A DNA stretch of 55,297 nt from Candidatus Coprousia avicola (lineage in GTDB: Bacteria > Actinomycetota > Coriobacteriia > Coriobacteriales > Coriobacteriaceae). The stretch lies in assembly GCA_018715125.1 (NCBI GenBank), contig DVMF01000081.1:1-55297 (forward strand), written 5' to 3'. The notes beneath the pieces were generated by a model. That model was not told the origin of the DNA, made no database searches, and saw only the letters and a list, made by a program, of their open reading frames with translations. Shown piece after piece: positions 29,281 through 55,146 of this stretch; within the stretch, counting starts at the first letter, position 1, and each line of letters begins with the position of its first letter. The translations under genes were made by a program, and so were the position numbers.

Positions 29281-29480
29281 GATGTCCAAATCCTTTCGCA
29301 TCTCGCGCCTGGGAAGGCGTGGCCGCGCTGGGGAATCATTTGAGCGCGGAGGCAGTGTCTGTCTAGGTGCAGAACTGGTATACCCCCGCCACTATGGGGG
29401 AGGGAAGGGTCCGGGACCGAATCCACAGGTTCTGCACCGCCCGGTTGGCGCACCCCGCACCCGCCCGCCGCATCGCCGCC

Positions 29481-35695: not shown

Positions 35696-35698
35696 CGG

Positions 35699-36356: not shown

Positions 36357-37430
36357 CTATCTTGTTATCCATCTTCCACCGCTGCTGCAAAGCATGACAT
36401 CCCCAGATTTCATCACCCATTCAATTTCAGATAAATAAATATCAAATGCATCTTGCTCGCCTTCTTTAGTCGAAACGCATTCATAGGCCATAAACTGTGC
36501 CTTTGGACGAGCATTTGTAGTTGGCGTTACGACTATTGTGTCATCAAATCTATATATTGATTTTGCTGGAAAGCTTCTGTCAAATACAAGCGTAAAGCTT
36601 GCAATCCTATTCCCAGATTCAATCGCAGAGGTAATCATACTGCGCCATATTCCAACAACTTCAAAGGTCTTTTCCTTAAGGTAATCATTTGAAACATTAA
36701 TAAAATCTGCATATGGGGTAAAGAAGGGAGAGTCTGGGCTGAGCAGAGCAACCCGGACAGAAAGATCCTCGCGTGCCAGCGCTGATCGCAAGAACTCTCT
36801 ATTTTGATTGGTCCACGATAGGCCATGAAAATGCACTATATCCAAGTTGTTTTCGACAGCCTTAATTTTATATGGATAGTTAGTTTCGGTAACATTAAAA
36901 TAAAACTGGCGGATTCCATACTGCAGATTATTTGCACCTGATTTTATTGAGTTGACTGCCAGCTGAAAAGACTCCTTCGCGGCCATGCGAATAGATGCTT
37001 TTGAGACGCTCCGTTTATCAATGAATAGCGTCATCATTGTTCTTGTTATTTCAAGCATGACAGTCTTTTTTCGATTTTTCATATCGCTGGTATCCGAATA
37101 TCGAAACGAAATATCGCTGCCTTCTATTCCGCTGTAAGAGGAGATGGTTGTAGCAAGTCTGCTCGAGAACTCCATCGCATCGATTGAATTAAGAGCACCG
37201 CTTAACGCTCTATCGGCCATCTGTAAGTATCTCGAGCAAGTGGTCTCATTAATCGCTAGACCGTTTGTTGAATGCAACCTTCTATCAAAGTAGAGGACGC
37301 GATCATTCAGCGTGTTAAATAAATCGGAGCAACCTAGCTTCGCAATGGAGAATGTAGTCTGACCGTATACATCAATAAGAAAATGTCTCAAAAAGTCCTC
37401 TGAAGTGACTTCTTCTTTGATTGGCGACAT
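36357..37430 (-). CDS. AT-rich protein with PLD-like C-terminal domain
   Basis: 357 residues from the ATG at 37430 (GGGGATG upstream). GC content is far below the neighbours. The N-terminal 200 residues are helical with unknown fold. Residues about 200-345 (IVHFHGLSWTNQNREFLRSA, LSVRVALLSPDSPFFTPYAD) recall the phospholipase-D-like nuclease domain seen in many uncharacterised effector and regulator proteins, but the catalytic HKD motif is not visible. It could be a defence or toxin effector. It is divergent from two tiny genes at 37686 and 38012, which share its low GC. Confidence 0.5.
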   Translation of the reverse strand: MSPIKEEVTSEDFLRHFLIDVYGQTTFSIAKLGCSDLFNTLNDRVLYFDRRLHSTNGLAINETTCSRYLQMADRALSGALNSIDAMEFSSRLATTISSYSGIEGSDISFRYSDTSDMKNRKKTVMLEITRTMMTLFIDKRSVSKASIRMAAKESFQLAVNSIKSGANNLQYGIRQFYFNVTETNYPYKIKAVENNLDIVHFHGLSWTNQNREFLRSALAREDLSVRVALLSPDSPFFTPYADFINVSNDYLKEKTFEVVGIWRSMITSAIESGNRIASFTLVFDRSFPAKSIYRFDDTIVVTPTTNARPKAQFMAYECVSTKEGEQDAFDIYLSEIEWVMKSGDVMLCSSGGRWITR

Positions 37431-40042: not shown

Positions 40043-41968
40043 ATGAGGTGCTTCATATGCATCCCCGGAGACGACACCCAATCGGGCATCTACCCTCCCG
40101 TGGGTTTAGCCTACATCAATGCGGTCTTGCGCGGCGCCGGACACGACGTCCACTGCTTCAACTGGTGCTTCCGCTCGGACGATGAGCTGGCGTGTGCCCT
40201 TTCGGAGTTCAATCCGCAGGTGGCTCTGATGGGTGGCACATCCTACGACCTTGACGCGTTCAGGACGTTTTTCCGCCTCGCAAAAGCCGCGGTGCCGGGC
40301 GTGGTTTGCATAGGTGGAGGCGCGGGCTTCACATCCGAGCCCGTCGTATTCAGCGAGCTCACCGGGGCTGACATAGCGATTGTCGGCGAGGGGGAGCGGA
40401 CGACGGCGCGCGTCATCTCCATCCTCGAGCAGGGCCGCACGGAGCTGCTGCAATCGCTGCCCGGCATAGTGGTGCGCTCCGAAGGCCGCCTGCGATACAC
40501 CGGCGACGCGAAAGAGATCGAGGATATCGACAGTATCCCCTTCCCCGACTATACGGGTTTCGAGATGGAGAGATACTTCGAGAACCAGCGCGACCGGGGC
40601 TTCGCACGCTATTTCAACGACCTTGGCGGCTCCCCTAGGGCGATGGTCATGTTCACGTCGCGCTCCTGCCCCTACGCTTGCGGCTTCTGCTGCCATACGC
40701 TGGGACGGCGTTACAGGAAGCGATCGCTCGACGCGGTGTTCGCCGAGCTTGACCTGCTGATGGAGCGTTACGCAATCAACGCCGTCTACTTCGCCGACGA
40801 GCTGTTCGTCAACGACCTGGAGCGGCTTGCGGAATTCTGCCGGCGCATAGCCCCCTATGGCATCCGCTGGGCGGCGGATTGCCGCGTGGAGGCGGTGTCG
40901 CGCCCCATGCTCGCCATGATGAAAGAGGCGGGGTGCGTGGCGCTGATGCTCGGGCTCGAAAGCTATTCGGACGACGTGCTGCAAGAAATGGGCAAACGCA
41001 TTTCTCCCTCTCAGATAGAGGCGGCGCTCGATGCCGTGGAAGAGGCGAAGATGTGCATCGAAGGGCATTTTATCTTCGGCACGCCGCATGAGACGCGTGG
41101 GACGTTTCTGGAATCGTTCAGATGCTGGAAGCGCTACCGCCGCATAGGGGTGGACATTCTGTGGCTTCTGCTCTACCCCGGCACGCGCTATTACTGCGAG
41201 GCGTGCGAGAGGGGCCTGATAAAGGACCGCGCGCGCTTCATCGAGGACGGCATGCCGCACATAAACATAACCCACATGCCGCAGCCTGAATACGAGGCGC
41301 TCGCACGTATCGGCACGCTCTGCCTCCTCGATGATTCGATCTGGGGTCGGATAGCGCGCGCAGAAGCGGGGGGAGGCGCTGGCCAGGCCGAGCTGGAATG
41401 CCCGCTCTGCGGGGCGAAGTTCACCCGCAGCATAGGCAGGCGCGATGCTTTTCGCGGCATAGGGCGCCAAAAGCTCGAGTTCGAATGCCCTGCGTGCAAA
41501 CGTTATAGCGTCTACTCATTCAAAGGAACGGCGCCTGCCGTGACCGACCTCATCCTTCGCCAGATAGAGGCGGGACAGACGACGGATGGCGCGCAGCAGA
41601 GCCCGCTCGCCTCGTTCTGCCGCAGAAACGGCATCCGCCGCTGCGCCGTGCTGGGGTACTCGCGCCAGCAGGCAGCAGTCGTGCATGCTCTGGGCGAGGC
41701 GGGCGTGGACGTGTGTACCCGAGAGCAGATTCCCGCAGGCGCCGACCCGCGCGATGCGGCACACGACGCGATGGATGCGTGGGAGCGAATGCGCAGTCAG
41801 GCAAAAGCCTGCAAGGCAGACACGGTTATATGCGCCGTCGGGTGCGCGTTCGAGGCGGTGGAAGACGCGCTTGCCGACACGCTTGCAGAGGACGGGTTGA
41901 GCATATTCTCCGCAATTGATGCCGTGTTCGATTTCCCATATCATGCCGAACGGCCCGAAGAGACGTAG
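40043..41968 (+). CDS. B12-type radical SAM protein with C-terminal zinc ribbon
   Basis: 641 residues from the ATG at 40043 (GAGG upstream). Residues 5-140 resemble a cobalamin-binding fold (IYPPVGLAYINAVLRGAGHDV, SELTGADIAIVGEGE), although the D-x-H-x-x-G ligand motif is not evident. The radical SAM core carries SCPYACGFC with Cys209, 213 and 216 and a conserved YFADELF. Near residue 455, CPLCGAKF...FECPACKRY is a four-cysteine metal site. A Rossmann-like C-terminal domain (AVLGYSRQQAAVVHALGEAG) follows. It is convergent with, and overlaps by 28 bases, the TmcAL-like gene. The reaction is unknown. Confidence 0.8.
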   Translation: MRCFICIPGDDTQSGIYPPVGLAYINAVLRGAGHDVHCFNWCFRSDDELACALSEFNPQVALMGGTSYDLDAFRTFFRLAKAAVPGVVCIGGGAGFTSEPVVFSELTGADIAIVGEGERTTARVISILEQGRTELLQSLPGIVVRSEGRLRYTGDAKEIEDIDSIPFPDYTGFEMERYFENQRDRGFARYFNDLGGSPRAMVMFTSRSCPYACGFCCHTLGRRYRKRSLDAVFAELDLLMERYAINAVYFADELFVNDLERLAEFCRRIAPYGIRWAADCRVEAVSRPMLAMMKEAGCVALMLGLESYSDDVLQEMGKRISPSQIEAALDAVEEAKMCIEGHFIFGTPHETRGTFLESFRCWKRYRRIGVDILWLLLYPGTRYYCEACERGLIKDRARFIEDGMPHINITHMPQPEYEALARIGTLCLLDDSIWGRIARAEAGGGAGQAELECPLCGAKFTRSIGRRDAFRGIGRQKLEFECPACKRYSVYSFKGTAPAVTDLILRQIEAGQTTDGAQQSPLASFCRRNGIRRCAVLGYSRQQAAVVHALGEAGVDVCTREQIPAGADPRDAAHDAMDAWERMRSQAKACKADTVICAVGCAFEAVEDALADTLAEDGLSIFSAIDAVFDFPYHAERPEET

Positions 41969-43287
41969 TGGCGATAGAGGTTATCGCACGCATCGGCATG
42001 GGCAATCTCCTCTGCGACCGACCGCGAATCGGACGCGGCCCCCGTCAGCAAGCTGCTGCCCTGGGCCGCCAGGCCGCGAGCGGGCGCGAGCTCTGCGCAT
42101 TCCTCGAGCGAGAAACCCTCCGAACAGGCGAGCAAGCGTGTCCACTGCACGCCATGGCAGCATGCCGGTTCGCTCGGCCGCAGGCCCTCGATGCCCAGCA
42201 GGAAGCGCGTCAGGATGCGCGTCGCCTTGTTCGGCGCCACCCCCGCACTCGCCCAGGCGGTCGAAGCGGCAGCGTAAGAACCCGCCTCAAGGGCGAGCCG
42301 CGCCAAGCCGTCTGCCCGTGAAGGCTCGTCGGGGAAGAACGTCCGCATCCCATGGGGGCGCTCCCGCAGCGCGCGCATCAAGGGCGCGCTGAACCTGTTC
42401 GGATGAACGGGGAACGACTCATCGTCCATAACGGCCTCAAACGATGCGCGAGGAAGGGTCATCTCGGCGAACCGCCTTTGGGCGTCCTTGTCGTCGCCAA
42501 GCGAAAACAGCCGCCTCCGAATGCAACTTGCCGAGAGAGGCTCGGCGGCAAAGGCCTGCCGCTCCATGCCGTCGCCCGGCGCAGAAGGCGCGACTTCGGG
42601 CATGCAATCGTCGAAAAATGCCTGGCCAACGCGGGGGTTCGTGGCGAACCGCACCCTCGCCCGCGAACGGATGGCTTGGAAGATGTACAGGATGCCCAAG
42701 ATATTGTTGGGCTGCCCCAGCGCCTCGATGCAAAGCGGGAAGGCCTCGGGCGGCACGAAGCCATCGAGCCCGCACGCGAAGGCATCCTCCTCCGCTATGC
42801 CGCGCGCCATAGCGCTTCGAAGCGTCTTGCACACGCGCTCGTCCTGCGCCATGGCGCTCGCCATCGTCGCCAGAAGGCGCGCATGCCCCGGCCCCGATTC
42901 GCTGCCGAAAAGCACCACGTCGATGCAACCTAGAGCATCGAGCAGCGACACCGCGCCCCATGCGAACGAATCGATAGGCGAGGTGGAAAATGCCACGGGA
43001 ATCTCGAAGACCGCGTCGGCCCCGCAATTCACCGCTGCCTGCGCTCGCGCCTCCTTGCTCGCGACAGCAGGAAACCCGCGCTGCGTGAAATTGCCGTTCA
43101 GCGTCACGATGACGCGGCGCGCGTGAAGGACTTCGCGCGCATAGGCGATCTGCATCAGATGCCCTTGGTGGAAGGGGTCGTAATCTGCTATCACCCCCAC
43201 CGTAGGGGCCGCACCCTCGCCAGGCCGCCAAAGGGGCAGCCCGTCGTAATCCGGGGAAGACTCGGGGTCCCGAGGAGAATTTCGCAT
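41941..43287 (-). CDS. TmcAL-like HIGH-superfamily nucleotidyltransferase
   Basis: 448 residues from the ATG at 43287 (GGGG upstream). The catalytic block VGVIADYDPFHQGH has His40 and His43, followed by VTLNGNFTQRGFPAVASKEA, GADAVFEIPVAFSTSP and LLDALGCIDVVLFGSE. These are the signatures of TmcAL (tRNA-Met cytidine acetate ligase), which adenylates acetate. The normal family is about 400 residues; the long C-terminal part here has helical blocks (ASTAWASAGVAPNKATRILT). As the last gene of the CMP-sugar operon, it may activate a different carboxylate. Its 3' end overlaps the B12-type gene. Confidence 0.75.
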   Translation of the reverse strand: MRNSPRDPESSPDYDGLPLWRPGEGAAPTVGVIADYDPFHQGHLMQIAYAREVLHARRVIVTLNGNFTQRGFPAVASKEARAQAAVNCGADAVFEIPVAFSTSPIDSFAWGAVSLLDALGCIDVVLFGSESGPGHARLLATMASAMAQDERVCKTLRSAMARGIAEEDAFACGLDGFVPPEAFPLCIEALGQPNNILGILYIFQAIRSRARVRFATNPRVGQAFFDDCMPEVAPSAPGDGMERQAFAAEPLSASCIRRRLFSLGDDKDAQRRFAEMTLPRASFEAVMDDESFPVHPNRFSAPLMRALRERPHGMRTFFPDEPSRADGLARLALEAGSYAAASTAWASAGVAPNKATRILTRFLLGIEGLRPSEPACCHGVQWTRLLACSEGFSLEECAELAPARGLAAQGSSLLTGAASDSRSVAEEIAHADACDNLYRHYVSSGRSA

Positions 43288-43326
43288 AATACCCCATCCG
43301 TGCGGCGCACCCAACGTGCGCCTGAA

Positions 43327-44424
43327 CTATTCGGCCCTGTGAAGCGAATAATATGTGACGACGACGGTCGAGAGCGCCAAGGCCGCGGCTATGAGCAGAG
43401 TGATGTCCAGGCTTATGCCCGCCAACGCGATACCCGCAAGCGCCGCCACTCCCAGCAGATGCCCGATATTCTCGGATAGCACCCAAATCTGCGAATGGTA
43501 GCTGCGCTTGCACTCGAAGAGCTGCTTGATGCAGAACACGTTGCCGCCGCCGAACCCCGTGAGCACCCACAGGATGAGCGCGGCGGTAAGCGAATGCGAC
43601 AGGACGGCGTACATGCCCAGAAGCACGGTCGACACCAAGATGTGCCCGCCGAGGAAAAACACCATCCAGTTGGAGCTTTTCGTCGCCTTGGCCAAAGGCT
43701 CGGTGGCAATGTATGGCACCCAGTTGCCGACGAACCACAGCCCTGCGGCAAGTGGGCTACCCGTGCCCAGAAACGCGATGATCAGCATGGCGTAGCAGTA
43801 CACGAAATAGTGCATCTGGTGAAGCACCATGGCCACACACAGGCGATTGTCGCCGTATTCTCCCCTGATCAGGCGGGCAGCCCAGCATCCGTCGTCAAAG
43901 CGAGGCGTGACCACCGACAGCGCCAGAAGAAGCGCAGGCACCGCCGCCATCAAGGCGTTTCCCGCGAAAAAGAATACGCCCGAAACAGCGAACCCCACCA
44001 CGCGGAACACGCGCTTACGCCATCGGGGCTCGCTTCCCTTTACGGCGCTGCGCATCGTTTGCAGCAGCGTCGAAAGAAGGACGACTTCGACGAAGCACAG
44101 CGCGTAGGCAACGGCGCTTCCGCCAGGCAGCAGGGCAACCGCGCGTCCCAGGATGAGAGCGACACACACGAAGAGGCTCTGAAGTTTGCGTATGCGCCTG
44201 GTGATGAGGAACAGGAAGATGTTTCCCAGCTGGTATGCCACCGTCATGCCCACGGCATAGACGACCCCGTACCCCTGCCCCAGCGCCCAGAATATGCCCC
44301 CGAGCTCGATAGCCCCCGAAAGCACGCAGGTGGCGTAGAAGGTGAATACCGTGATGCGCCTCCCGCGCGCATCGGGTTCGCGCGGGGCGGGTGCCCTCGC
44401 GGCGGGCGCGTCGTTCTTATTCAT
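43327..44424 (-). CDS. MFS-like membrane protein
   Basis: 365 residues with 10-11 hydrophobic helices spread evenly and a charged ArgArgIleArgLys loop after the third. It has no signature strong enough to name a family. The fold resembles major facilitator transporters. Part of it (LAKATKSSNWMVFFLGGHILV) suggests a cytoplasmic loop between two halves. It lies one base after the radical SAM gene, so it should be made with the operon and may export its product. Confidence 0.65.
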   Translation of the reverse strand: MNKNDAPAARAPAPREPDARGRRITVFTFYATCVLSGAIELGGIFWALGQGYGVVYAVGMTVAYQLGNIFLFLITRRIRKLQSLFVCVALILGRAVALLPGGSAVAYALCFVEVVLLSTLLQTMRSAVKGSEPRWRKRVFRVVGFAVSGVFFFAGNALMAAVPALLLALSVVTPRFDDGCWAARLIRGEYGDNRLCVAMVLHQMHYFVYCYAMLIIAFLGTGSPLAAGLWFVGNWVPYIATEPLAKATKSSNWMVFFLGGHILVSTVLLGMYAVLSHSLTAALILWVLTGFGGGNVFCIKQLFECKRSYHSQIWVLSENIGHLLGVAALAGIALAGISLDITLLIAAALALSTVVVTYYSLHRAE

Positions 44425-44425
44425 A

Positions 44426-45694
44426 CTACCCTCGTTTCATCGAACGCATCACGGGGCATAACACCTCACAGCAGGTACAATGCCGCCTTTCAATGAGCGG
44501 GCAGCGCGCCTCGGACCCATCGCAGGCCGCATGGGCGGCGGCAGCGTTTCGAAGGATGATCTCGTCGAGCTGACTAGCAAATGATGCGCCCTGGCGGAAC
44601 ACGGGTTCGCTCAGCACAGGGCACCCGTCTGTCTGCCACGCACCCCCGGCGAGCACCCCCTCGGGCGTGATGCCCACGGTGACGCTTCGTTGCGCCCCTG
44701 AAGGCATGCCCGCGCACGCCGCGCGCCACATGCGCGCAAGAGCCGCAGGGGTTTTCGATCTGCGGCCCCCGTCGGCGAGGATCGTGAGCAGCGCCGCGAA
44801 CATCCGCTCGATCGAATGGTGCACGTGCACGCGCTGGGACGTTCGCTCCGACACTTCCAAAAGCTCCACGAGCAGCTTGAAGTATTGCTCTAAAGAAGGC
44901 AGGAGTTCCCCGTGAGCCCTCATCCTACCCGCGCGGACGGCGCGATGCACGCTGTAGCGCTGAACACCTACCCCTGCCAGACGCTCCATCAACACGGGCA
45001 AATCGTCGCAGTTCATCGAGGTGGCAACGGATGTCACTTCGACGATGCGCGCGTCCTCGTCGCTCTCGCACAGCTCGCGGACCACGGCGTATGCGCTCTC
45101 GAACGGATCGCCTTCGCTTGCGCCCGCCCACCAGTTGTGGTAAGAGCGCGGGCCATTCAGGCTCACTCCCAGGTAGGAAAGATGCGGAAGCAGCGCCTTG
45201 AGTACGCTCGCCGCTTGGGGAAGCGCGGCGTTGGTGTCGATTCCTACGCCCTGCGGGCCGAACAGTTCGGCGGCATGGCGCACAATCCGCTCGATGTCGG
45301 GCCTCAACAAAGGCTCGCCGCCGCCCAGATCGAGCTTCACATCCATGGTGCGCCTTTGCGCTTCGCCGGCTATGGCATCAAGAATGGCCAGGATCTTTTG
45401 GGTAGACAGAGGCGCATCGGACACAGTGGTCTTCCCCACAATGGCGATGGCGTTTATTCCGCAGCCGCGGCAGGCTAGGTTGCATTGGGGCAGAAGGTCG
45501 AACACAACGTGCAGCACGGGCCGCCCGATGGCCTCCTCGCGACGCCTTTGAGCAAGATGGGTGCACAGAAGGGCCGCCTGGCTTTCAGACAGTGGCGAGA
45601 AGAAGCCTTCTATCGACTTGTATGTCGCATCAAGCTCCGCAGCGTCGAGCGCCGGGGCGGGGGCGGATATGTTCGAAACATGCTGAGTGTCCAC
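44426..45694 (-). CDS. Radical SAM enzyme with C-terminal Cys-rich region
   Basis: 422 residues from GTG 45694 (GGAGGCG upstream). The [4Fe-4S] motif is CNLACRGC with Cys71, 75 and 78. LDLGGGEPLLRPDIERIVRH is the usual SAM-binding GGEP, and a TIM-barrel half follows. The tail carries clustered cysteines (CDGSEARCP, CTCCEVLCPV), a SPASM-like auxiliary cluster site. SPASM enzymes modify peptides or carbohydrates. It starts one base after the KdsC-like fusion gene stop, so both are translated from one message. The substrate is unknown. Confidence 0.8.
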   Translation of the reverse strand: MDTQHVSNISAPAPALDAAELDATYKSIEGFFSPLSESQAALLCTHLAQRRREEAIGRPVLHVVFDLLPQCNLACRGCGINAIAIVGKTTVSDAPLSTQKILAILDAIAGEAQRRTMDVKLDLGGGEPLLRPDIERIVRHAAELFGPQGVGIDTNAALPQAASVLKALLPHLSYLGVSLNGPRSYHNWWAGASEGDPFESAYAVVRELCESDEDARIVEVTSVATSMNCDDLPVLMERLAGVGVQRYSVHRAVRAGRMRAHGELLPSLEQYFKLLVELLEVSERTSQRVHVHHSIERMFAALLTILADGGRRSKTPAALARMWRAACAGMPSGAQRSVTVGITPEGVLAGGAWQTDGCPVLSEPVFRQGASFASQLDEIILRNAAAAHAACDGSEARCPLIERRHCTCCEVLCPVMRSMKRG

Positions 45695-45695
45695 G

Positions 45696-46688
45696 CTACG
45701 CCTCCGTCTTGCTCGTTAAGACGAGCGTCTGCGCGGCAAGGTCGCACTCGGCGAACATGTCAGGATGCTCGGGCGCGCCCCATGAGGCCACCTGGGTGAA
45801 TTCCACCTCGAACGCCATCTCGTCCTCAAGGTGCGAGTATTCCGCGAACGCCTTGGGAAACGCCTGCTCGAAATCATAGGCGAACGAGGCGGCTTTTTGG
45901 CTGAACGGATGGCCCAGCGGCCTGCACACGCCTTTGAGCTGGAATTTGTCGAACGACACGGCAACGTGCGGGTTGCCCGCCACCTCGATTGCTTTGGCGG
46001 AACGGGAGTTCGTCTGGAACTGCATCGTGCGGCCGTCGAACAACGCACTCACGGAACGCACGGACGGAGTGGAATCGTTACCGCAGGTAGCGAGCGCCAC
46101 CACACGCGCGCCTTCGAGCTCGCGGAAGGCCCAAGCCGCGAAGGCCTCCGCGGCTTGCGGGCCAGCCTCTTCGCGTCCCGCTCGTTTCCGGACGTCGTCA
46201 GCGCTGGCATGTTCCCGCTCGCAATCATTGCGCGCGATCGCCCATTCGGCGAATTCCCTCAGGGCGCCCTGCCCTCCCTTGAGGTGGCATATGTACGTCG
46301 CATGCTGCTTCGCCTGGTCGATGGCGTCAGAGGGGCACCCCGAAACGCCTGCGGCGGCAAGGGCCTCCACGTCGTTGAGGTCGTCTCCGATGTACGCCAC
46401 GTTGTCCATCTCGCAGCCAATGCTCGCTGCAAGCTCCCGAAGGACAGCCTCTTTGTCGTTGCGTCCCAAAAAGACACGGCGCACACCCAGCTCTTCGCAG
46501 CGCTTTCGCACGATGTCGGATTGACGGCCGGTCACCACGGCAGCCTCGATGCCCGCATCGGGGAGCAGGGATTTGAGCGCCCAGCCATCCCTGGCGTTGA
46601 ACGACTTGAACAGCTCCCCCTGCGCGGAAAGATGGAGCTCGTTATCGGTCATGGTGCCGTCTACGTCGGTGCATAATACGCGAATCAT
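45696..46688 (-). CDS. KdsC-type HAD phosphatase fused to a flavin split-barrel domain
   Basis: 330 residues from the ATG at 46688. Residues 1-165 are a KdsC-family HAD phosphatase: CTDVDGTMTDNELHLSAQGE with the nucleophile Asp8 and Asp10, FNARDGWALKSL, VVTGRQSDIV, and the acidic VAYIGDDLNDVEAL block. KdsC removes phosphate from Kdo-8-phosphate. Residues about 195-330 match the pyridoxamine-phosphate-oxidase-like split barrel that binds FMN (ALATCGNDSTPSVRSVSALF, NSRSAKAIEVAGNPHVAVSF). I know no other protein with this fusion. It sits between the KdsB-like and radical SAM genes. Confidence 0.85.
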   Translation of the reverse strand: MIRVLCTDVDGTMTDNELHLSAQGELFKSFNARDGWALKSLLPDAGIEAAVVTGRQSDIVRKRCEELGVRRVFLGRNDKEAVLRELAASIGCEMDNVAYIGDDLNDVEALAAAGVSGCPSDAIDQAKQHATYICHLKGGQGALREFAEWAIARNDCEREHASADDVRKRAGREEAGPQAAEAFAAWAFRELEGARVVALATCGNDSTPSVRSVSALFDGRTMQFQTNSRSAKAIEVAGNPHVAVSFDKFQLKGVCRPLGHPFSQKAASFAYDFEQAFPKAFAEYSHLEDEMAFEVEFTQVASWGAPEHPDMFAECDLAAQTLVLTSKTEA

Positions 46689-46692
46689 CAGG

Positions 46693-47466
46693 CTATACCT
46701 CTCTTTCCGAAACGATGCGCGCTTCAATGGCCGCAATGTCGCCCGGGTAATCGACCGCAGGGGACACCTCATCAGTGATAAGCGCACGCACTGGCACCCC
46801 ATGCTCTATCAGGCGCAGCATCTCTACGTCCTCGATGCGCTCAAGGGGGCTTTTCCCCTCTTCCTTGCCATACCGGGCGAACGCGCTTAGGACCTGGGGG
46901 CGAATCGCGTACACTCCCAATTGACGATAGTAGGGCACGGTCGCCCCCTCCAGGGCCGCACGGCCCGCCGCTCCGCCTTTCATCCCTGGAATGAGGCTTC
47001 GGGAAAGGTAGAGGATGTCTCCCCCTATTCCGCAGACCACCTTCACGACGGACTCCCTCTGCGCCTGCTCGGCGTCGGCAAGTGGCGCGATGAGGTTGAC
47101 CGCCTGAACGTCGGGATGCGCGGTGCAGTAATCCACCAGAGCACCGAGCGCTTCCGGTGCGACGAGGGGCTCGTCGCCTTGGACATTCACAAATAGATCG
47201 GCCTGCAGCTCCGCCGCCGCCTCAGCTATGCGGTCGGTTCCCGTGGGATGGCTGGCCGAAGTCATCACGGCCTTCGCGCCGAACGATTCGCATGCCTGCA
47301 CGATTCGGCGGTCATCGGTGGCGACGACCACATCGTCGAACTGCGGCACGCACATGCACTGCCTATGGACCCACCAGATCATCGGTTTGCCTGAGATGAG
47401 GGCCAGGGGCTTACCGGGAAAGCGCGACGACTCCCAGCGCGCGGGTATGAGACCGATAGTTTTCAT
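46693..47466 (-). CDS. KdsB-like CMP-sugar-acid synthetase
   Basis: 257 residues, normal length for KdsB (CMP-Kdo synthetase). Hallmarks are IGLIPARWESSRFPGKPL at the N-terminus, VATDDRRIV, LFVNVQGDEPLV (Asp pair for Mg-CTP) and the C-terminal VDYPGDIAAIEAR. The enzyme couples CTP to a 3-deoxy-ulosonic acid such as Kdo or a related sugar acid. KdsB is nearly confined to Gram-negative bacteria making lipopolysaccharide, so its presence here is unusual. It overlaps the previous gene by four bases (ATGA) and is followed after 4 bases by the KdsC fusion. Confidence 0.85.
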   Translation of the reverse strand: MKTIGLIPARWESSRFPGKPLALISGKPMIWWVHRQCMCVPQFDDVVVATDDRRIVQACESFGAKAVMTSASHPTGTDRIAEAAAELQADLFVNVQGDEPLVAPEALGALVDYCTAHPDVQAVNLIAPLADAEQAQRESVVKVVCGIGGDILYLSRSLIPGMKGGAAGRAALEGATVPYYRQLGVYAIRPQVLSAFARYGKEEGKSPLERIEDVEMLRLIEHGVPVRALITDEVSPAVDYPGDIAAIEARIVSEREV

Positions 47467-48755
47467 TGGCGAACCTCGTTGCTATTCCATTTCCGAGAAC
47501 CCATCGAACGTTCCAATGCCGCAAGAACGCGCGCTTCGTTTTGCCCGCCGTGCTCGCGCTGCATGCACGACGCGAACTCGTCGTCGTCCATGCCCAAAAG
47601 CTCGCCCAGAACCTCATCGGGCTCAATCAGGCCGCCCTGGTAAAGTCCTATGAGGTAATCCCTGTTGGCGAAGGGGTCATGTTTCGCGAAGCGCAACCGC
47701 GACTCGAATGGCGAAAGGCGCGCCTGAACGTCTCTGCTGCTGTAGCCCCGCTTATACACATCGTGAACGTAGAGGTTGTTATCGGTCACCGCAATGGGCG
47801 CGAAACCGCGGGCGATGAAATCCGACAGGGCGATCTGAAGGAGGTTGGGGCTCGAATAAAGCTGGGAGAACCTGCTCCAGAGCGCCTGGTGCCCACGCCC
47901 CGAACGCACGAACCCCTCGCGCACGGGGGAAGACGATCCGTACTTGAAAACACGGTAGATGCGCCCGTCCGCAAAATCGCCCGGCTGCGCATCGAAGCGT
48001 GCGGCCACGGCCCCGCTGTACACCGAGCATTCGACAGGCGACGCATCGCTGTGCGAATTGGCGTCGCCGCGCACGTCGGCACCCTCAGCAGGCGCGGTGT
48101 CGATGTGGTTGAAATCCACCACGAATAGGCCGTTGTCGTGCGGTCTTTGCTTGCCGCCGCCATTGCGAACGGGGCCCCTGATTGCTATCTTGCGGCCGCC
48201 GACTCGCTTCACCAACTCCGGCGTACTCGATTGCGCAAGGGGCGCGCGCCCCGCTTGCGCTCGCCCGCGTTCCGCAGGCCCGCCGCTCGGGATGCATGCC
48301 GCAAGCCGGTCCAAGGGCTCGCCTGCGGGAAGCGAGTCGCAAAACGTATCCTGCTGCGCCAAACGCGCCGCCTGGCCGTAGCGTCCACGCTGCATGCACA
48401 GGGAGAAACGCTCGAAAGGCGACCCCTCTTGCTCTATCCGAGATTCTAACGCGCGCCGCACCTCGAGCGCCGCGTGGAACAGCCCTTGGGACATAAGGAG
48501 GAAGACGAGCTCCCAATTCGGCGTGCGCCACCCGTCGCCCCAACGGGCTTGGAGCAGCGACGACACCTCGCGCTTCGTCGCGCCGCCGGATAGGGCGTCG
48601 TCGAATCGAAGGCAAAACGCGATAAGGCCATCGAGTCCGAGGGACCGCGCCGTTTGGGCAGGATCGAAGGCGTCATAGGTGAAAGGGGCGTCGCCGCTCG
48701 GGTGCGTGGTGGCAGGGGCGCCGCATATAGCAGACATAGAGGATTCCGTCGCCAT
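47463..48755 (-). CDS. Putative sialyltransferase-like protein
   Basis: 430 residues from the ATG at 48755 (GAGAGG upstream). The N-terminal half is helical, perhaps TPR-like (LLMSQGLFHAALEVRRALES, LCMQRGRYGQAARLA). The C-terminal half reads VKRVGGRKIAIRGPVRNG, FVVDFNHIDT, SSPNLLQIALSDFIARGFAP and HDPFANRDYLIGLYQGGLIE. This spacing recalls the sialyltransferase-like (GT29/42 type) fold, in which a G-rich strand, D-x-x-D-x-V-x-R-F-N, P-S-x-G-L and a late H-D mark the donor site. The match is loose. With KdsB and KdsC neighbours, a CMP-sugar-using glycosyltransferase is a coherent reading. Confidence 0.4.
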   Translation of the reverse strand: MATESSMSAICGAPATTHPSGDAPFTYDAFDPAQTARSLGLDGLIAFCLRFDDALSGGATKREVSSLLQARWGDGWRTPNWELVFLLMSQGLFHAALEVRRALESRIEQEGSPFERFSLCMQRGRYGQAARLAQQDTFCDSLPAGEPLDRLAACIPSGGPAERGRAQAGRAPLAQSSTPELVKRVGGRKIAIRGPVRNGGGKQRPHDNGLFVVDFNHIDTAPAEGADVRGDANSHSDASPVECSVYSGAVAARFDAQPGDFADGRIYRVFKYGSSSPVREGFVRSGRGHQALWSRFSQLYSSPNLLQIALSDFIARGFAPIAVTDNNLYVHDVYKRGYSSRDVQARLSPFESRLRFAKHDPFANRDYLIGLYQGGLIEPDEVLGELLGMDDDEFASCMQREHGGQNEARVLAALERSMGSRKWNSNEVRQ

Positions 48756-48759
48756 GGCG

Positions 48760-49908
48760 CTACCTCTCGGGAAAGATGACGGAAAAGTCCCTATCACCCA
48801 ACTGCAGACCGAAGAACGTCTCGAAGAATCGCGCCACCTCGTCCTCCAATCCGTCCGTCCCGAAAAACTCGGGGTACATGGTGTGCCTGGCCCATGCGAA
48901 CTGAAGAACTGCCTCACATCCGTGATTCGACCACGTGTTCAAAACGGCGGGGTTATCGAACACGTGACCGTTTTTCACGGCGGTGAGCTGCTGGAGCGAC
49001 GGGTCGGCCATCAATTCCTCGCTGCACCCCTCGAAGATGAAGAAGATGTAGTCGGGGTCATAGGCGAGCAGCTGTTCCTTCGTGATGTTGACATATCCGG
49101 TGGGGTCCCCCGTGTCCAACACGTAGTCGCCCCCGCAGCGTTCCACCCATTGGCCTGCGAAGCGCCCACTTCCATACACCTGATAGCTCGATGTGTCGCG
49201 AATCACTATCGCGGTGGGCTCAGGCTCGCCGGACACCTCCTGAACAAGGGCGTCACAGGCAGAAAGCATCTCGTCGAAATACGCGCACCAATCGCGCGCC
49301 TTGGCCCTCGCTTCGTCGGTGTTCAAAACGTCGGCGACAAGGGCCACGGCATCTTTCAGGCCGTCGTAGCTGTTGAAGGCGATATCAACCGTCGCCACGC
49401 CCGCGGAGGCAAGGCGCTCCGCCAGGTCGGGATTGTCGGACGCGCGCATGAATACTACCTGCGCTCCCTGGGCGATTACCTCTTCCGCGGAAGCCTGCTC
49501 GGCATCGCAGGACGGAATGCCGGCCATGCCGGGGTAAAAATCGAAAAGCAGGGGATATCCGCCGGAAACGTCTGGGTACATGACGATATGGGAAAGTCCG
49601 TCGAGCATCGCCAGGATATCGGTGCCGGCAACCCAGAGCACGGCGTACCGCTCGACGGCGGAGGACACCTCTACCGCGTTGCCGCCCAGATCGGTGACGG
49701 TGCGCGTGGAAGAATCATCTTGCTCGCCGCCCGTCTGCGCACCGCCGTCCGACGAGCAGGATCCAAGTCCTGCCGTCAGAGGGGCGAGACAGGCGCCGGC
49801 GGCCAAAACGAGCATGTCACGCCTGGAGAAAACCGGCACGCACGTCGCCTCGGCGCGTCTGCGAGAACCGTCGGATGCGGCCACTCTTCCTACCAATGAA
49901 CGGCGCAT
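48760..49908 (-). CDS. FecB-like iron-siderophore/corrinoid-type substrate-binding protein
   Basis: 382 residues. The N-terminus has a twin-Arg-like start (FSRRDMLVLAAGACLAPLTAG) ending in GSC, so it is a lipoprotein. The mature part shows the class III binding-protein pattern: VTDLGGNAVEVSSAVERYAV, a central rigid helix (SYDGLKDAVALVADVLN), and ITKEQLLAYDPDYIFF at the second lobe. Such proteins bind ferric siderophores, heme or cobalamin outside the cell. It is encoded with its ATPase and permease. The ligand is not determined, though corrinoid or iron would suit the radical SAM enzymes nearby. Confidence 0.85.
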   Translation of the reverse strand: MRRSLVGRVAASDGSRRRAEATCVPVFSRRDMLVLAAGACLAPLTAGLGSCSSDGGAQTGGEQDDSSTRTVTDLGGNAVEVSSAVERYAVLWVAGTDILAMLDGLSHIVMYPDVSGGYPLLFDFYPGMAGIPSCDAEQASAEEVIAQGAQVVFMRASDNPDLAERLASAGVATVDIAFNSYDGLKDAVALVADVLNTDEARAKARDWCAYFDEMLSACDALVQEVSGEPEPTAIVIRDTSSYQVYGSGRFAGQWVERCGGDYVLDTGDPTGYVNITKEQLLAYDPDYIFFIFEGCSEELMADPSLQQLTAVKNGHVFDNPAVLNTWSNHGCEAVLQFAWARHTMYPEFFGTDGLEDEVARFFETFFGLQLGDRDFSVIFPER

Positions 49909-50663
49909 GAGACGCCCCTTCCTTCACCAGATTCCACCGAAACGTCCACTCCGTAAAGTTTCTCCAGGCTCTCCTTGGTGATTACCTCGTGGGACGCCCC
50001 GAACGAGAACGTTCCGCCTCCCTCAAGCAGCAGGGCACGCGAACAGCATGCCAGCACGTGATCAGGCGCATGGCTTATCATGAAAACGCCCGAACCCCCG
50101 TCGGTGAGCGAACGTATGGCATCGATAAGCATCTTCTGATTATAGTAATCCAAGTTCGATGCGGGTTCGTCCATGAGAATCATGCGAGAACCCTGGGCCA
50201 TCGCCCTGGCAAGAAGCACCATTCGACGCTGGCCCCCCGAAAGCTGTCCGTAATCGGCCTTTCCCAGATCCTGTATGCCCAAACGCTCGAGGGCGCCGCA
50301 GGCGACGGCATAATCCTCTTTGCGGGGGCTCGAGAAGCGGGGGATGTGAGACGCTCTGCCCATCAGCACCATGTCGATGACGGTTTGGCGCATGCTCGAC
50401 CGGTCTGATTGGGGAACGTAGGAGAACACCTGCGCAAGCCGCCCCGCCGAATACTCGTCAAGGTCGCGCCCGTCTATGGAGATCGAACCCGAGCAGGGGC
50501 GAATGAGGCGCAACAGGGTGCGGAACAACGTGGTTTTCCCCATGCCGTTCTTCCCAAGAAGGCCCACCGTGTCGCACGTATCGAACGAGAACGTAAGAGG
50601 ACCCGCGACAACCTGCCGTTCGTATCCGAGAATCACATCGCGCACATCAATTCTCATGGGCAA
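49890..50663 (-). CDS. FecE/BtuD-like ABC ATPase
   Basis: 257 residues. Walker A GKNGMGKT is at residues 37-44, QLSGGQRRMV is the signature, ARAMAQGSRMILMDEPASNLD is Walker B, and MISHAP is the switch. It energises the FecCD-like permease and FecB-like protein encoded around it. Its stop lies inside the SBP gene start (overlap of 19 bases). Length and motifs fit iron/cobalamin import ATPases. Confidence 0.92.
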   Translation of the reverse strand: MPMRIDVRDVILGYERQVVAGPLTFSFDTCDTVGLLGKNGMGKTTLFRTLLRLIRPCSGSISIDGRDLDEYSAGRLAQVFSYVPQSDRSSMRQTVIDMVLMGRASHIPRFSSPRKEDYAVACGALERLGIQDLGKADYGQLSGGQRRMVLLARAMAQGSRMILMDEPASNLDYYNQKMLIDAIRSLTDGGSGVFMISHAPDHVLACCSRALLLEGGGTFSFGASHEVITKESLEKLYGVDVSVESGEGRGVSCAVHW

Positions 50664-51693
50664 GCATCCTTCTGTTGCGCACGAGTAGAGCGAAGAACAA
50701 CGGGGCGCCGAGCAGCGACGTCAGCACGCTCACCGGCAGCTCGGCTGCCGAGGCACACCGAGCTATGTCATCGATCGCCAGAAGGAATACGCTTCCGAGC
50801 AGGATGTTCACGGGAAGGGTCTTGCGGAAGTCGTTGCCCGCCAGAAGGCGCGCGGCGTGGGGAATCACAAGGCCTATCCAGCTGATTCCTCCCGTCACCG
50901 CCGTGGCTGCTGCCGTCAGGAGCGATGCGGCCACGATGGCCACGCAGCGCAGCGCACGCACGTTCGCGCCCATCGAACGGCTCTCAATATCCGAGACGAG
51001 GAGCAGATTAATCCTCCATCGGATGGCCCAGAGCGCGGCTGTGCCCGTGAGGAAAAACGGCGCGAAAAGCCAGACGTCCTCCGGCGCAGCGTGGCTCAGG
51101 CTCCCCATGAGCCAATACGTAATCTGGGGCAGCTGTTCTTCGGGGTCGGCGATGTATTTCGCCATGGCAACCAGGGCGTCGAACACCGACGCAGCCATCA
51201 TGCCTATCAGCACAAGGAATACGATTGAACCCAGGTTACGCGCCAGGCGCGAAGCGCACCAATACACCAAGTAGGCGACGGCACACCCAAAAACAAAGGC
51301 GCCGAGCTTGACGCCTAGCCACGAGAAACCCAGGAGCATTCCCGCCGCGGCGCCGAACGCCGACGCCTGCGTTGCCCCAATCGTCTCAGGCGAGGCTATA
51401 GGGTTCGAGAAAACCGTTTGATATGCCGACCCCGCAACAGCGAGTGAAGCGCCAACAAGTACGGAAAGCACGATGCGGGGCAGCCGCAGCTGGAGCACGG
51501 CGGCCTCTTCGGCAGGGGTCCAGGAAATTGGGTAATCGGGGAACACTGAGTGAGCGACAATACCGAATGCCTTGTCCAAGCCTATGCCATCCACGCGGCC
51601 GAAACAGACGGAGGCGAAGAAAAGAAAGAAGAGGCCCACCGAAAGAGTAGCGACGAGAGCGGCGTATGGGCTTTTCCCTCGTACGGCATTCAT
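50647..51693 (-). CDS. FecCD-family import permease
   Basis: 348 residues with about nine hydrophobic helices. Blocks VDGIGLDKAFGIVAHSVFPD, LRLPRIVLSVLVGASLAVAG, NPIASPETIGATQASAFGAA and the coupling region WLMGSLSHAAPEDVWLFAP match BtuC/FecCD importers. The C-terminus contains the TGGISWIGLVIPHAARLLAG signature. Its ATG overlaps the stop of the 16-codon ORF upstream (ATGA) and its 3' end overlaps the ATPase gene by 17 bases. Confidence 0.92.
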   Translation of the reverse strand: MNAVRGKSPYAALVATLSVGLFFLFFASVCFGRVDGIGLDKAFGIVAHSVFPDYPISWTPAEEAAVLQLRLPRIVLSVLVGASLAVAGSAYQTVFSNPIASPETIGATQASAFGAAAGMLLGFSWLGVKLGAFVFGCAVAYLVYWCASRLARNLGSIVFLVLIGMMAASVFDALVAMAKYIADPEEQLPQITYWLMGSLSHAAPEDVWLFAPFFLTGTAALWAIRWRINLLLVSDIESRSMGANVRALRCVAIVAASLLTAAATAVTGGISWIGLVIPHAARLLAGNDFRKTLPVNILLGSVFLLAIDDIARCASAAELPVSVLTSLLGAPLFFALLVRNRRMLAHEN

Positions 51694-51740
51694 AATGACC
51701 GAAACATCCCCTTTACGATAGGCTTCCCATCTATCGCCAT
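51690..51740 (-). CDS. 16-residue leader ORF of the importer/CMP-sugar operon
   Basis: ATG 51740 has AGGAG eight bases upstream and encodes MAIDGKPIVKGMFRSL. Its TGA overlaps the permease ATG (ATGA at 51690-51693). The permease itself has only a distant G-run, so its translation is probably coupled to this ORF. It could be a regulatory leader or a very short peptide for the operon's radical SAM enzyme. Confidence 0.5.
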   Translation of the reverse strand: MAIDGKPIVKGMFRSL

Positions 51741-51871: not shown

Positions 51872-52720
51872 TTATACACCGCGCGGTATTTCCTCTTCTT
51901 TCTCAATACCACGAAGGCAATACTTGCAGGCTTCAATCGGAGCATGTCTCCACATAAGCCGACGAACTTCCCGACGGTTCTGAGAGGCGGTATTATTCAG
52001 GAGGTCGACGTATTCGCCAGCATTACGAGGGATAATGCCCAAGTCGAATCCATGCGCATGACGAGGACAATAATACATTACTCCATTCAGAACGCTCTTG
52101 GCCCGAAGCCTGCATCGCGCGAACTGGCGAACATGCTCCTTCCTACTCCTTTCTCTGCTTACTGCCTCCCCGTAGTTAATCCAAGTATCAGAATGAGGAA
52201 GCTCATACATAACACCCTCTTGATCTAAGACCGATATGAGCTTTCGTTGAGACTCTGCAGAGGACGGATAGCCGCCCATTACCACAGTAACGCGTTTTTC
52301 CCGCAGCCGCGCATATAGTTCCAAGTCATCCGGGACGATGGACGCATTCGTCGGGATGCTGACCTTCAAGCATTTCTCGCTGGGGACTTCAGCGATGATT
52401 TCCTTTAAATGTTGATTGAGAAAAGGTTCACCGCCTAAAATTCTAAAATGACCACATATATCGAAACATTCAGCGACTTTGCGTATCGACTTGATGACAA
52501 TGTCGGTATCGACGTCATAGGGGCTCTCATAGGCTGGCATAAGATTGGCGCAGTTCGGGCACAGTAGATTGCATCTCGTTGTTATTGGTATTTCTACGAA
52601 GTCGAGATAAAAATGCCGAGGCGAAAGATACACGAGACCTTTGACTCCGCATGATCTCAGCAACCTTTGCACTCTCAGGTAATCTGCATATAAGAAGCTA
52701 TCTCTCCACAAACTGCTCAC
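51872..52720 (-). CDS. Radical SAM protein of the glycosyltransferase pair
   Basis: 282 residues from GTG 52720, AT-richer than the operon. The cluster motif is CNLLCPNC (Cys50, 54, 57), with FRILGGEPFLNQHLKEIIAE, SIPTNASIVPDD and a C-terminal Cys set (RLMWRHAPIEACKYCLRGIE). It matches a short radical SAM type that is often found beside glycosyltransferases in capsule or surface-glycan loci. It lies 92 bases downstream of a GT2 gene on the same strand. The reaction is unknown. Confidence 0.75.
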   Translation of the reverse strand: MSSLWRDSFLYADYLRVQRLLRSCGVKGLVYLSPRHFYLDFVEIPITTRCNLLCPNCANLMPAYESPYDVDTDIVIKSIRKVAECFDICGHFRILGGEPFLNQHLKEIIAEVPSEKCLKVSIPTNASIVPDDLELYARLREKRVTVVMGGYPSSAESQRKLISVLDQEGVMYELPHSDTWINYGEAVSRERSRKEHVRQFARCRLRAKSVLNGVMYYCPRHAHGFDLGIIPRNAGEYVDLLNNTASQNRREVRRLMWRHAPIEACKYCLRGIEKEEEIPRGV

Positions 52721-52812
52721 ATCCGTTCCCAGATCAAATCAAAACAGGAGAACGCAACCATCCCCAATGCTCAAAATATATTAAAATCGTAATAAATTGA
52801 TTTTACCCTCCT

Positions 52813-53958
52813 CTAGTTTATTTTTCTGATTTGATGCGGAATAATCTCCCATCGCAGCTTGCGAAATAGGGAGAATAATAATTGGTCTATAGCAAGAACG
52901 GCATGAAAAATAACCCGTGGGAAAACGCGAGAGAAAACGATAAGAATCAAAATATGCCACTCACAATAGTTGCAATACACGAGATTTGGGTATCTTCTTG
53001 CTGCATAGTCTTCACGCGACGATGGAGACGAGTGTGCCCTTTTTCTTACATCGTTTATATAATATGGATTATCTCGCCAACCCGATATGTTCTCTTTCAG
53101 GGTTGCGAATATACCTTTCACCAAACCAACGCGAAGATTCGTCGGTGCATCAACCCTTGCGACTGCGGCCGAACAGAGGCGAATGCTTTTCGCGATTATG
53201 AAGAACTCCAATTCAACTCGATACCTGGAAAAGGAGTCATCCGACCGCACAAGCATGCATAACCGCTCCATAGCTTTCACCCAATCGAGTCGTTCACTCC
53301 CGAAGGATGAGGTTATTCCATTGTATGTTTCGCGATAATAATGATAAAGGACACATTTCACAGATCCAATGCTTCGAGCGAGGCAAAAAACCTTTGCAGA
53401 AAAAACCTGGTCCTCCGCATACCGCAAGTCATTTGGAAATTGCGCCTTAAAGAATAAGTTCCGCTCAATTAGTTTGCCCCAAGGTGCAATGTTAACTTCT
53501 GCAAGCAAGGTGCGATGATCAGCCATGGTGAAATTTCCCAAGTCGAACAGAGGGCTTGATACGATAATGGATGCGAGATCTTCTTCGACCACGGCGATCT
53601 CATCATGTAAGCACAGCACGAGATCGTTTTCATCCGTTATCGCTTTATCGTACATAGCTTTGCAATAGTCGGGCTCGATGCGGTCGTCGCTATCCACGAA
53701 AGCGAGATAATCACCGCGGGATTGGGTTGCTCCATAGTTTCTCGCATGGCCAGGCCCTTTGTTTTCTGTAGAATAAACCTTGACGAAGGGGTGCACTAAA
53801 GAGAATTTATCGGCAACTCGCAAACTCCCATCCGTGCTGCCATCGTCGACGATAATCACTTCAATGTCATCCATGGTTTGGGACGTTAGTGATTTAAGAC
53901 AGGATTCGAGATGCTCTGCGCCATTGTAAACCGGAACAACGATACTTATCTTACACAT
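52813..53958 (-). CDS. GT2-family glycosyltransferase
   Basis: 381 residues with AAGGGG before the ATG. The GT-A fold is clear: ISIVVPVYNGAEHLESCLKS, EVIIVDDGSTDGSL, GPGHARNYGATQSRGDYLAF and VDSDDRIEP (DxD metal site), then a helical C-terminal half with AEDQVFSAKVF. This group adds sugars to surface polysaccharide or teichoic-type polymers. Its low GC and the adjacent radical SAM gene suggest a transferred glycan pair. Confidence 0.9.
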   Translation of the reverse strand: MCKISIVVPVYNGAEHLESCLKSLTSQTMDDIEVIIVDDGSTDGSLRVADKFSLVHPFVKVYSTENKGPGHARNYGATQSRGDYLAFVDSDDRIEPDYCKAMYDKAITDENDLVLCLHDEIAVVEEDLASIIVSSPLFDLGNFTMADHRTLLAEVNIAPWGKLIERNLFFKAQFPNDLRYAEDQVFSAKVFCLARSIGSVKCVLYHYYRETYNGITSSFGSERLDWVKAMERLCMLVRSDDSFSRYRVELEFFIIAKSIRLCSAAVARVDAPTNLRVGLVKGIFATLKENISGWRDNPYYINDVRKRAHSSPSSREDYAARRYPNLVYCNYCEWHILILIVFSRVFPRVIFHAVLAIDQLLFSLFRKLRWEIIPHQIRKIN

Positions 53959-54120: not shown

Positions 54121-55146
54121 TTACTGCGAAACTGGGCTCTTGGTTAGCTTCATAACCTGATTGCTAGGTTTCGCGTTCATTCTGGCAGTAATTGCTTTAT
54201 GCCCATACCACTTTGCCCGGTACTCTGCCGGCCCCATTAGCCCGGCTGAAACCTCCGTCATGTCCTGCTGCTTCTCTGCCAATGTGTCAGTGATAATCGA
54301 GTCGTCGAAGTTCACCCACACATCGTCTTCGTCGGGCAGGCTCACGCCCAGCGAACGCGAGGCCGCTATCGCCGCCCGGAATATCCCCGCGAGCGCCTTC
54401 TCTAGCACGTGCTCGTGTCGTCGGATGTTGCGCATCAGCGCCGAGTTATCCGACGACACCTCCGCCGCGGTCTTCACGTAGCCCGCTCCGTCGAAATCGA
54501 AGTACGTGATTCCGAACCCGCACAGATGGCCCAGCATCTGCAGCGCCGTCCGCAAGGCCTTCGCCTGCGCGTCAGTGCGCAGCGCCGGCGCGAATTCCTG
54601 TATCGCGTCCTCGGTGCTCATGATCTTTCGGAATACTGTGCAAGCTTGCCGCCCGAACGGGATGGAGGCCTTGCGTCCATTGCCGTCCTCTTCCTGGTCG
54701 AACATCACGTCCGACAGGAACACGCGCATCTTCCCGTTGTCCACCTCCGAGATCGTCGCGTCGAACGCGAGGTCCACCGCCCGTATCGCGTCGATGGCGT
54801 CCGCGAGCACAGGCTGCCCGTACGGCGACATGTCCACCCGCGTGTTGTCGACAGCGGGCTTCACGATCGCGAACGTCGGTCACTCCGATCCCGTTTCGTA
54901 AATCGGGCAAGCGCCAGTCGGCGCAACCTCGTTGCCCTGCCCGTCGAAGCACCCGGTCTCGATGTGGTAGCCGTTCACACCCCTAAGGTGCATCTGCAGC
55001 TGGTCCACCGCCTTACCACGGTAGAATGTCTGCGTCACGAACGCGCGCTCGGTCACGCCCTCCTCGTCCCACGTTAGCGGCACGACCATCCGCGCGTCGT
55101 AGTGCCAGATGTGAACCTTTCCAGCGTCCACGTCCACCCACAGAGC
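54121..55146 (-). pseudogene. Phage portal protein, internal part, nonsense-mutated
   Basis: Two open segments lie in one frame. The first (55146-54880) reads WVDVDAGKVHIWHYDARMVV and ends in YETGSE-stop. The second (54864 on) continues PTFAIVKPAVDNTRVDMSPY, ADAIDAIRAVDLAFDATI and then DDSIITDTLAEKQQDMTEVS, GLMGPAEYRAKWYG, the hallmarks of SPP1-like portal proteins. The separating codon is TGA at 54882-54880, probably from TGG. The N-terminus is cut at 55146 by the transposase fragment, and the C-terminus ends early. In phages this gene precedes the scaffold and capsid genes found at 35-36 kb. Confidence 0.8.

Follow-up and report, generated by a model that had tools for sequence, protein, structure and literature searches.

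Proteins of the KdsB family (TIGR00466; structures 3oam and 1gq9) are CMP-Kdo synthetases, which join the sugar acid 3-deoxy-D-manno-octulosonate (Kdo) to cytidine monophosphate (CMP); in the Aquifex enzyme, the Mg-binding aspartates and K19 have been described as strictly conserved (PMC3149649). Homologues also occur in modules that combine KdsB with an HMGL-like aldolase and often with a HAD phosphatase, which are present in many Clostridia, in Bacilli and in other bacteria. FecBCD-type systems carry metal chelates, heme or cobamides, and TmcAL, the tRNA-Met cytidine acetate ligase, is a tRNA enzyme elsewhere. Here, we describe an operon-like locus on the 55,297-nucleotide contig DVMF01000081.1 of Candidatus Coprousia avicola (order Coriobacteriales; the whole contig stretch is called the window below), in which KdsB-, KdsC-, FecBCD- and TmcAL-like proteins are found together with a radical SAM (S-adenosylmethionine) protein and an orphan protein, P0001, in what is probably a Gram-positive host. 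With a probability of about one half, we read the locus as a horizontally acquired accessory operon built around CMP-activation of a 3-deoxy-2-keto sugar acid, the tailored product of which would be exported or placed on the cell surface.

Results

A compact operon encoding KdsB- and KdsC-like proteins

Nine co-directional protein genes lie on the minus strand between positions 41941 and 51693, in the order permease, ATPase, binding protein, P0001, KdsB, KdsC-flavin fusion, radical SAM protein, membrane protein resembling the major facilitator superfamily (MFS) and TmcAL-like protein (Table 1). The eight intergenic gaps measure −17, −19, 4, −4, 4, 1, 1 and 12 bases in operon order, which bears out the compact one-strand, nine-gene operon proposed in a preliminary description of this DNA; the gap of +39 cited there applies only if the TmcAL-like gene starts at the alternative ATG at 43287, and is otherwise +12. 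Because of this tight spacing, the genes are likely to form a single transcript. A leader open reading frame had also been proposed ahead of the permease gene, but it has only 16 codons, and promoter-like matches in this region were no commoner than in shuffled sequence. GC content at third codon positions (GC3) is even across the operon genes (0.70–0.79) and differs from that of a guaA-type gene at 32.5 kb on the same contig (0.90), which fits a common, foreign origin. The FecBCD assignment of the first three genes was confirmed by matches to PF01032, PF00005 and PF01497.

The KdsB-like protein passed the cut-offs of TIGR00466 (159.3 versus 155.2) and PRK13368 (258 versus 255), scored below that of PRK05450.1-1 (155.6 versus 281), and keeps the Mg/CTP (cytidine triphosphate) catalytic residues R10, R15, K19, D98 and D239. 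In the adjacent fusion protein, residues 2–151 match the KdsC family (TIGR01670, 123.5 versus a cut-off of 106.95) and include the DxD motif as DVDGT, and residues 191–303 match the flavin-type domain PNPOx_N (PF01243, 43.9 versus 28.1). The KdsB-like and KdsC-flavin calls of the preliminary description thus stand, and homology together with the retained catalytic residues supports its predicted CMP-linked acidic sugar step.

The window KdsB groups with an aldolase-linked clade

At an E-value of 1e-15 or below, KdsB homologues were present in just 3 of 299 genomes of the order. In the other two, kdsB adjoins an HMGL-like (4-hydroxy-2-oxovalerate aldolase-like) gene, a HAD phosphatase gene and glycan genes. 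To place the window protein, the three sequences were used in a scan of GTDB, which yielded 80 loci, mostly from Clostridia, Bacteroidia and other groups; as retrieval relied on two peptide patterns, one of them GKPM[IV]WW, the sampling of loci is biased toward this type of KdsB. In a maximum-likelihood tree (quick search, with the Shimodaira–Hasegawa-like approximate likelihood ratio test, SH-aLRT, as the only support measure), the window KdsB is placed within a clade of 48 rows (SH-aLRT 96). An HMGL-like aldolase gene lies within 5 kb of kdsB in 37 of the 47 other members of this clade and at none of 35 loci outside it (Fisher p 1.8e-14, ignoring relatedness). Among the kdsB loci (L008, L009 and L016–L095 in our numbering), KdsBs with a Trp-Trp motif after GKPM make up this aldolase-linked clade and vary at His182 and Gln216.

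Relative to canonical KdsB, the window protein has Trp31-Trp32, Gln182 and Met216 and stands outside a lipopolysaccharide context. Position 182 (numbered, like 216, as in the window KdsB) is His in 37 of 38 KdsBs from outside the clade, whereas within the clade 17 sequences have His, 18 have Gln and the remainder have other residues. Likewise, 37 of 38 outside KdsBs, but only 2 of 47 clade members, carry Gln at position 216. Both positions presumably face or contact the sugar in Escherichia coli KdsB. Because the protein groups with an aldolase-linked, non-lipopolysaccharide clade and is changed at two near-invariant positions, it is probably a CMP-ulosonate synthetase acting on an acid that is probably not Kdo. 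For the aldolase-linked Trp-Trp clade as a whole, these patterns suggest a widespread CMP-activated sugar acid other than Kdo.

The KdsC part of the window fusion matches the KdsC-family profile of KdsB-aldolase loci at 174 bits, and KdsB and KdsC cluster together in other loci. Unlike the KdsB-aldolase-HAD modules, the window operon has no aldolase, glycosyltransferase or flippase gene; what it adds to them are the FecBCD importer, the radical SAM protein, the TmcAL-like protein and the flavin domain. The pairing of KdsB with KdsC in a Gram-positive, which had been thought new, is in fact preceded by these modules, which are carried by many Clostridia, by Bacilli and by two further genomes of the order. 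Nor is a neighbouring CMP-sugar transferase a novelty, as kdsB lies beside a polysialyltransferase- or GT52-type gene in Lachnospiraceae/Eubacteriales.

The importer and the source of the sugar acid

A synthase for the acid was not found. Searches of the genome gave no NeuB and no recognisable KdsA, and the HMGL-like aldolase was absent from the operon and, with one relative as query, from the genome. The only PF00793 matches are two sequences like synthases of 3-deoxy-D-arabino-heptulosonate 7-phosphate (DAHP): an AroG-type DAHP synthase on contig C73, and a DAHP-synthase-like C-terminal fragment at the start of contig C7, before a tyrA-like gene; both were rejected as KdsA. The earlier statement that KdsA and NeuB are lacking is therefore upheld for recognisable forms, with the DAHP-synthase-like sequences as the nearest matches. 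The assembly, in 93 contigs, has a completeness of 96.6%, so that failure to find a synthase does not prove its absence.

Import of the precursor had been suggested as the way around this gap, but it is unlikely on general grounds, given what FecBCD-type systems carry and given that a KdsC phosphatase implies a phosphorylated acid. KdsC thus points to a phosphorylated precursor made inside the cell and argues against uptake of the free acid. A readily available candidate for this precursor would be DAHP. PF01497 has no match in the 2.42-Mb genome other than the binding protein of the importer. An importer and a membrane protein beside biosynthetic-type genes recall siderophore loci with FecBCD and an exporter; unlike these, the operon lacks, by Pfam and NCBIfam matches, a nonribosomal peptide synthetase, a nonribosomal-peptide-synthetase-independent siderophore (NIS) synthetase and any known metallophore enzyme.

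P0001 is an orphan upstream of kdsB

P0001 had been described as putatively sialyltransferase-like. We found no link to any sialyltransferase, either with family models or with the profile of the kdsB-linked polysialyltransferase-type (POLYST) genes, and rejected this assignment for want of any family, profile or sequence similarity. No Pfam, NCBIfam, PHROG or PADLOC family matched above its cut-off, and the only Pfam signal was a spurious, sub-threshold plant motif (E=0.32). Among 299 genomes of the order and 396 of the phylum, searched in a loose first pass that can miss remote relatives, P0001 found only itself. Exact 8-mer pattern scans of GTDB and IMG/VR, which reach close relatives only, returned nothing, and no plasmid matched P0001, P0003 (the radical SAM protein) or P0004. 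The best match in the PDB, a 70-residue stretch of a trypanosome mitoribosome assembly factor (E=0.009), was judged to be chance, and single-sequence AlphaFold models of the full-length protein and of residues 175–430 were unusable (mean predicted local distance difference test scores of 40.5 and 43.8). Profile comparison with 106 families of kdsB neighbours gave at best 2% probability.

The one argument for P0001 as a transferase of the CMP-acid is its position. In L018 and L019, Clostridial glycan loci that hold two of the three nearest KdsB relatives (47%), a polysialyltransferase (PF07388) or GT52 (PF07922) gene occupies the same slot directly upstream of kdsB, although P0001 resembles neither in sequence or profile. 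At L016, a member of the family to which the polysialyltransferase-type genes of L018 and L019 belong forms the C-terminal part of a GT2 fusion protein. By analogy with these loci, P0001 may use the CMP-acid.

Radical SAM, membrane and TmcAL-like proteins

The radical SAM call was confirmed by the PF04055 match and by a CxxxCxxC motif (C71-x3-C75-x2-C78), and the C-terminus of the protein is Cys-rich. P0003 remains far below the score of every named NCBIfam equivalog and has a single weak, partial match (29% identity) among the 299 order genomes. The designation of the following protein as MFS-like holds as far as appearance, with about ten hydrophobic segments, but no Pfam family matched above its cut-off, and no other copy was found among 339 genomes of the order.

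The TmcAL-like call was likewise borne out: PF05636 (HIGH_NTase1) scored 176.9 against a cut-off of 27, and an FHQGH motif is present. The protein shares the HIGH motif and its N-terminal domain with TmcAL, but it scores below the nucleotidyltransferase equivalog cut-off of PRK13670 (146.9 versus 360), its match to the Thermotoga maritima TmcAL structure covers residues 38–232 only, and local PDB matches end at residue 232–266 of 457. It is also unlike TmcAL in being encoded in a metabolic operon, with no other copy among the 339 order genomes; this singular distribution stands out, given that TmcAL elsewhere acts as a tRNA enzyme and is here found with the operon.

Distribution and genomic setting

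No second copy of the full combination was found in the genomes searched: FecBCD, radical SAM, flavin and TmcAL-like proteins occur with KdsB and KdsC only here. Near the related kdsB genes, nothing homologous to P0001, the radical SAM protein, the membrane protein or the TmcAL-like protein was detected except for generic radical SAM similarity; all of these searches began with a loose first pass and may overlook distant homologues. A literature search returned no paper on such a cluster. Conserved clustering, the absence of which the preliminary description had named as a refuting result, is thus lacking for the exact combination, while KdsB and KdsC do cluster elsewhere. The absence of P0001, membrane protein and TmcAL-like genes from the other order genomes searched fits acquisition as one set.

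The operon is flanked by phage remnants in the same orientation, a broken portal gene (54121–55137) on one side and a truncated major head gene and a scaffold-type gene (35174–36214) on the other (PHROGs 533, 422 and 31118). A distance of about 3 kb separates the portal and head matches in phage record MT835795, whereas in the window the space between them measures about 18 kb and is filled with bacterial-type genes, the operon among them. Eggerthella phage PMBT5 has several extra genes between its minor head gene and a minor structural gene. The operon therefore lies in what resembles a cargo site in a decayed prophage, provided that the contig is assembled correctly. The 18-kb insert showed no convincing boundary repeat, no tRNA and no Rfam match.

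A B12-binding radical SAM gene (GC3 0.76) is convergent with the operon and is possibly part of the same island; likeness of its product to BchE and P-methyltransferase is far below cut-offs, and its C-terminal region includes a CxxC-rich stretch. Upstream of the operon, a radical SAM gene and a GT2 gene of low GC (0.45–0.50) match those of L011, a KdsB-aldolase glycan locus from the same taxonomic order (5e-13 and 1e-51, respectively). Elsewhere in the window, a 357-aa protein beside the phage scaffold-type gene (36357–37430, minus strand) has no Pfam, PHROG or PADLOC match, and a seven-bladed beta-propeller lactonase-like protein (PF10282; 38528–39772, minus strand; GC3 0.53) is encoded divergently from the B12 radical SAM gene. 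The contig end (55150–55297), judged by eye, resembles part of an IS3-type transposase (HSDRGGHY), so that the contig may break in a repeat. At 25501–29301 (minus strand) lies the gene of a 1266-aa protein that is apparently secreted, contains an M60-like peptidase domain (PF13402) and has a C-terminal tail rich in Gly.

Table 1. Features of the operon and of its immediate neighbours in the window
Feature	Coordinates	Strand	Evidence or remark
16-codon open reading frame (MAIDGKPIVKGMFRSL), proposed leader	51693–51740	−	stop overlaps permease ATG; gene status unproven
FecCD-type permease	50647–51693	−	PF01032, E=1.2e-74
Importer ABC ATPase	49890–50663	−	PF00005 (ABC_tran), E=6.9e-27
Substrate-binding protein, Peripla_BP_2	48760–49908	−	PF01497, E=1e-15
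Orphan P0001, 430 aa	47463–48755	−	directly upstream of kdsB, 4-base overlap; no family
KdsB-like CMP-ulosonate synthetase (probable)	46693–47466	−	CTP_transf_3, TIGR00466, PRK13368; catalytic residues; tree
KdsC-type HAD phosphatase fused to PNPOx/FMN split barrel	45696–46688	−	TIGR01670, PF01243, PDB KdsC matches
Radical SAM protein (P0003)	44426–45694	−	PF04055, E=4.6e-10; cysteine motif
Polytopic membrane protein, MFS-like in appearance only	43327–44424	−	about 10 hydrophobic segments
TmcAL-like HIGH-family nucleotidyltransferase (HIGH_NTase1)	41941–43314	−	PF05636, E=1.1e-51
B12-binding radical SAM protein	40043–41968	+	PF02310 and PF04055; start chosen from sequence
Radical SAM and GT2 glycosyltransferase genes	51872–53958	−	Pfam; upstream of operon, membership not claimed

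Discussion

Overall, the data suggest a model in which the operon activates and elaborates a sugar acid. KdsC would dephosphorylate an ulosonate phosphate of intracellular origin, and KdsB would then couple the free acid to CMP, both steps being predicted from homology and kept catalytic residues. P0001, by its position, may then use the CMP-acid; the flavin domain, the radical SAM protein and the TmcAL-like adenylyltransferase may tailor the product, and the membrane protein may export it, unless it is placed on the cell surface. The adjoining FecBCD genes suggest that a secreted and re-imported chelator-like small molecule is at least as likely as a surface glycan. Several points weigh against this model. 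The window KdsB has the longest branch in the tree (1.56), which makes its placement uncertain and leaves room for a shift in substrate. Despite the 96.6% completeness of the assembly, the searches turned up no synthase for the acid, and P0001 has no detectable relation to any transferase. As there is no second copy of the combination, a joint function is argued from operon structure alone, and FecBCD adjacency is the whole of the argument for a possible chelator.

Among other explanations, a surface-glycan module is a tentative but substantial alternative. It would place a terminal CMP-activated acidic sugar on a cell-wall polysaccharide with the help of the upstream GT2 and radical SAM proteins, leaving FecBCD as an unrelated neighbour in the transcript. 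KdsB relatives are indeed encoded in glycan loci that also contain GT2, flippase and polysialyltransferase-type genes, and the upstream pair corresponds to genes of such a locus in the same order; however, the operon itself lacks a flippase, a polymerase and an aldolase, GC is much lower in the upstream pair, and those loci contain no relatives of P0001 or of the radical SAM, membrane and TmcAL-like proteins. That FecBCD imports heme or a corrinoid, which the flavin domain and both radical SAM proteins would process, with KdsB and KdsC recruited for another function, appears unlikely. The binding protein is weakly like IsdE (E=9e-7), the operon radical SAM protein weakly like NirJ/AhbC/AhbD and its B12-binding neighbour weakly like ChuW/HutW, yet all of these scores are far below curated cut-offs, and KdsB and KdsC keep their canonical signatures.

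More speculative still is a variant in which no synthase is missing, because DAHP of the shikimate pathway is itself a 3-deoxy-2-ulosonate phosphate: KdsC would dephosphorylate it, KdsB would make a CMP-heptulosonate, and P0001, the radical SAM protein and the TmcAL-like ligase would make from this a secreted sugar-acid chelator of a new class, to be taken up again by FecBCD. We rate this as a long shot. A set of unrelated or decaying acquired genes with no joint function would account for the single occurrence and for the broken phage genes alongside, but nine open frames with tight gaps, uniform GC3 and intact catalytic motifs make it more doubtful again. Least probable of all is antiviral cargo of the prophage, in which a viperin-like radical SAM protein and a CTP-using enzyme would form a defence system. 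The location between portal and scaffold-type genes would suit it, as would the extra genes in the corresponding interval of PMBT5, and P0003 matches pVip models at 3.5e-10. This score (37.8 bits), however, reflects generic radical SAM similarity, with TIGR04133 and NirJ scoring higher, so a viperin-like role of P0003 was rejected; FecBCD and KdsC do not fit a defence system either.

For the KdsB family, the tree shows that many Gram-positive members fall in an aldolase-linked clade, which probably acts on a substrate other than Kdo. The Candidatus Coprousia avicola operon is a case in which KdsB and KdsC appear to act outside lipopolysaccharide, and its orphan protein and unexpected mix of radical SAM and FecBCD genes point to a product that could be accessible by deletion and metabolomics.

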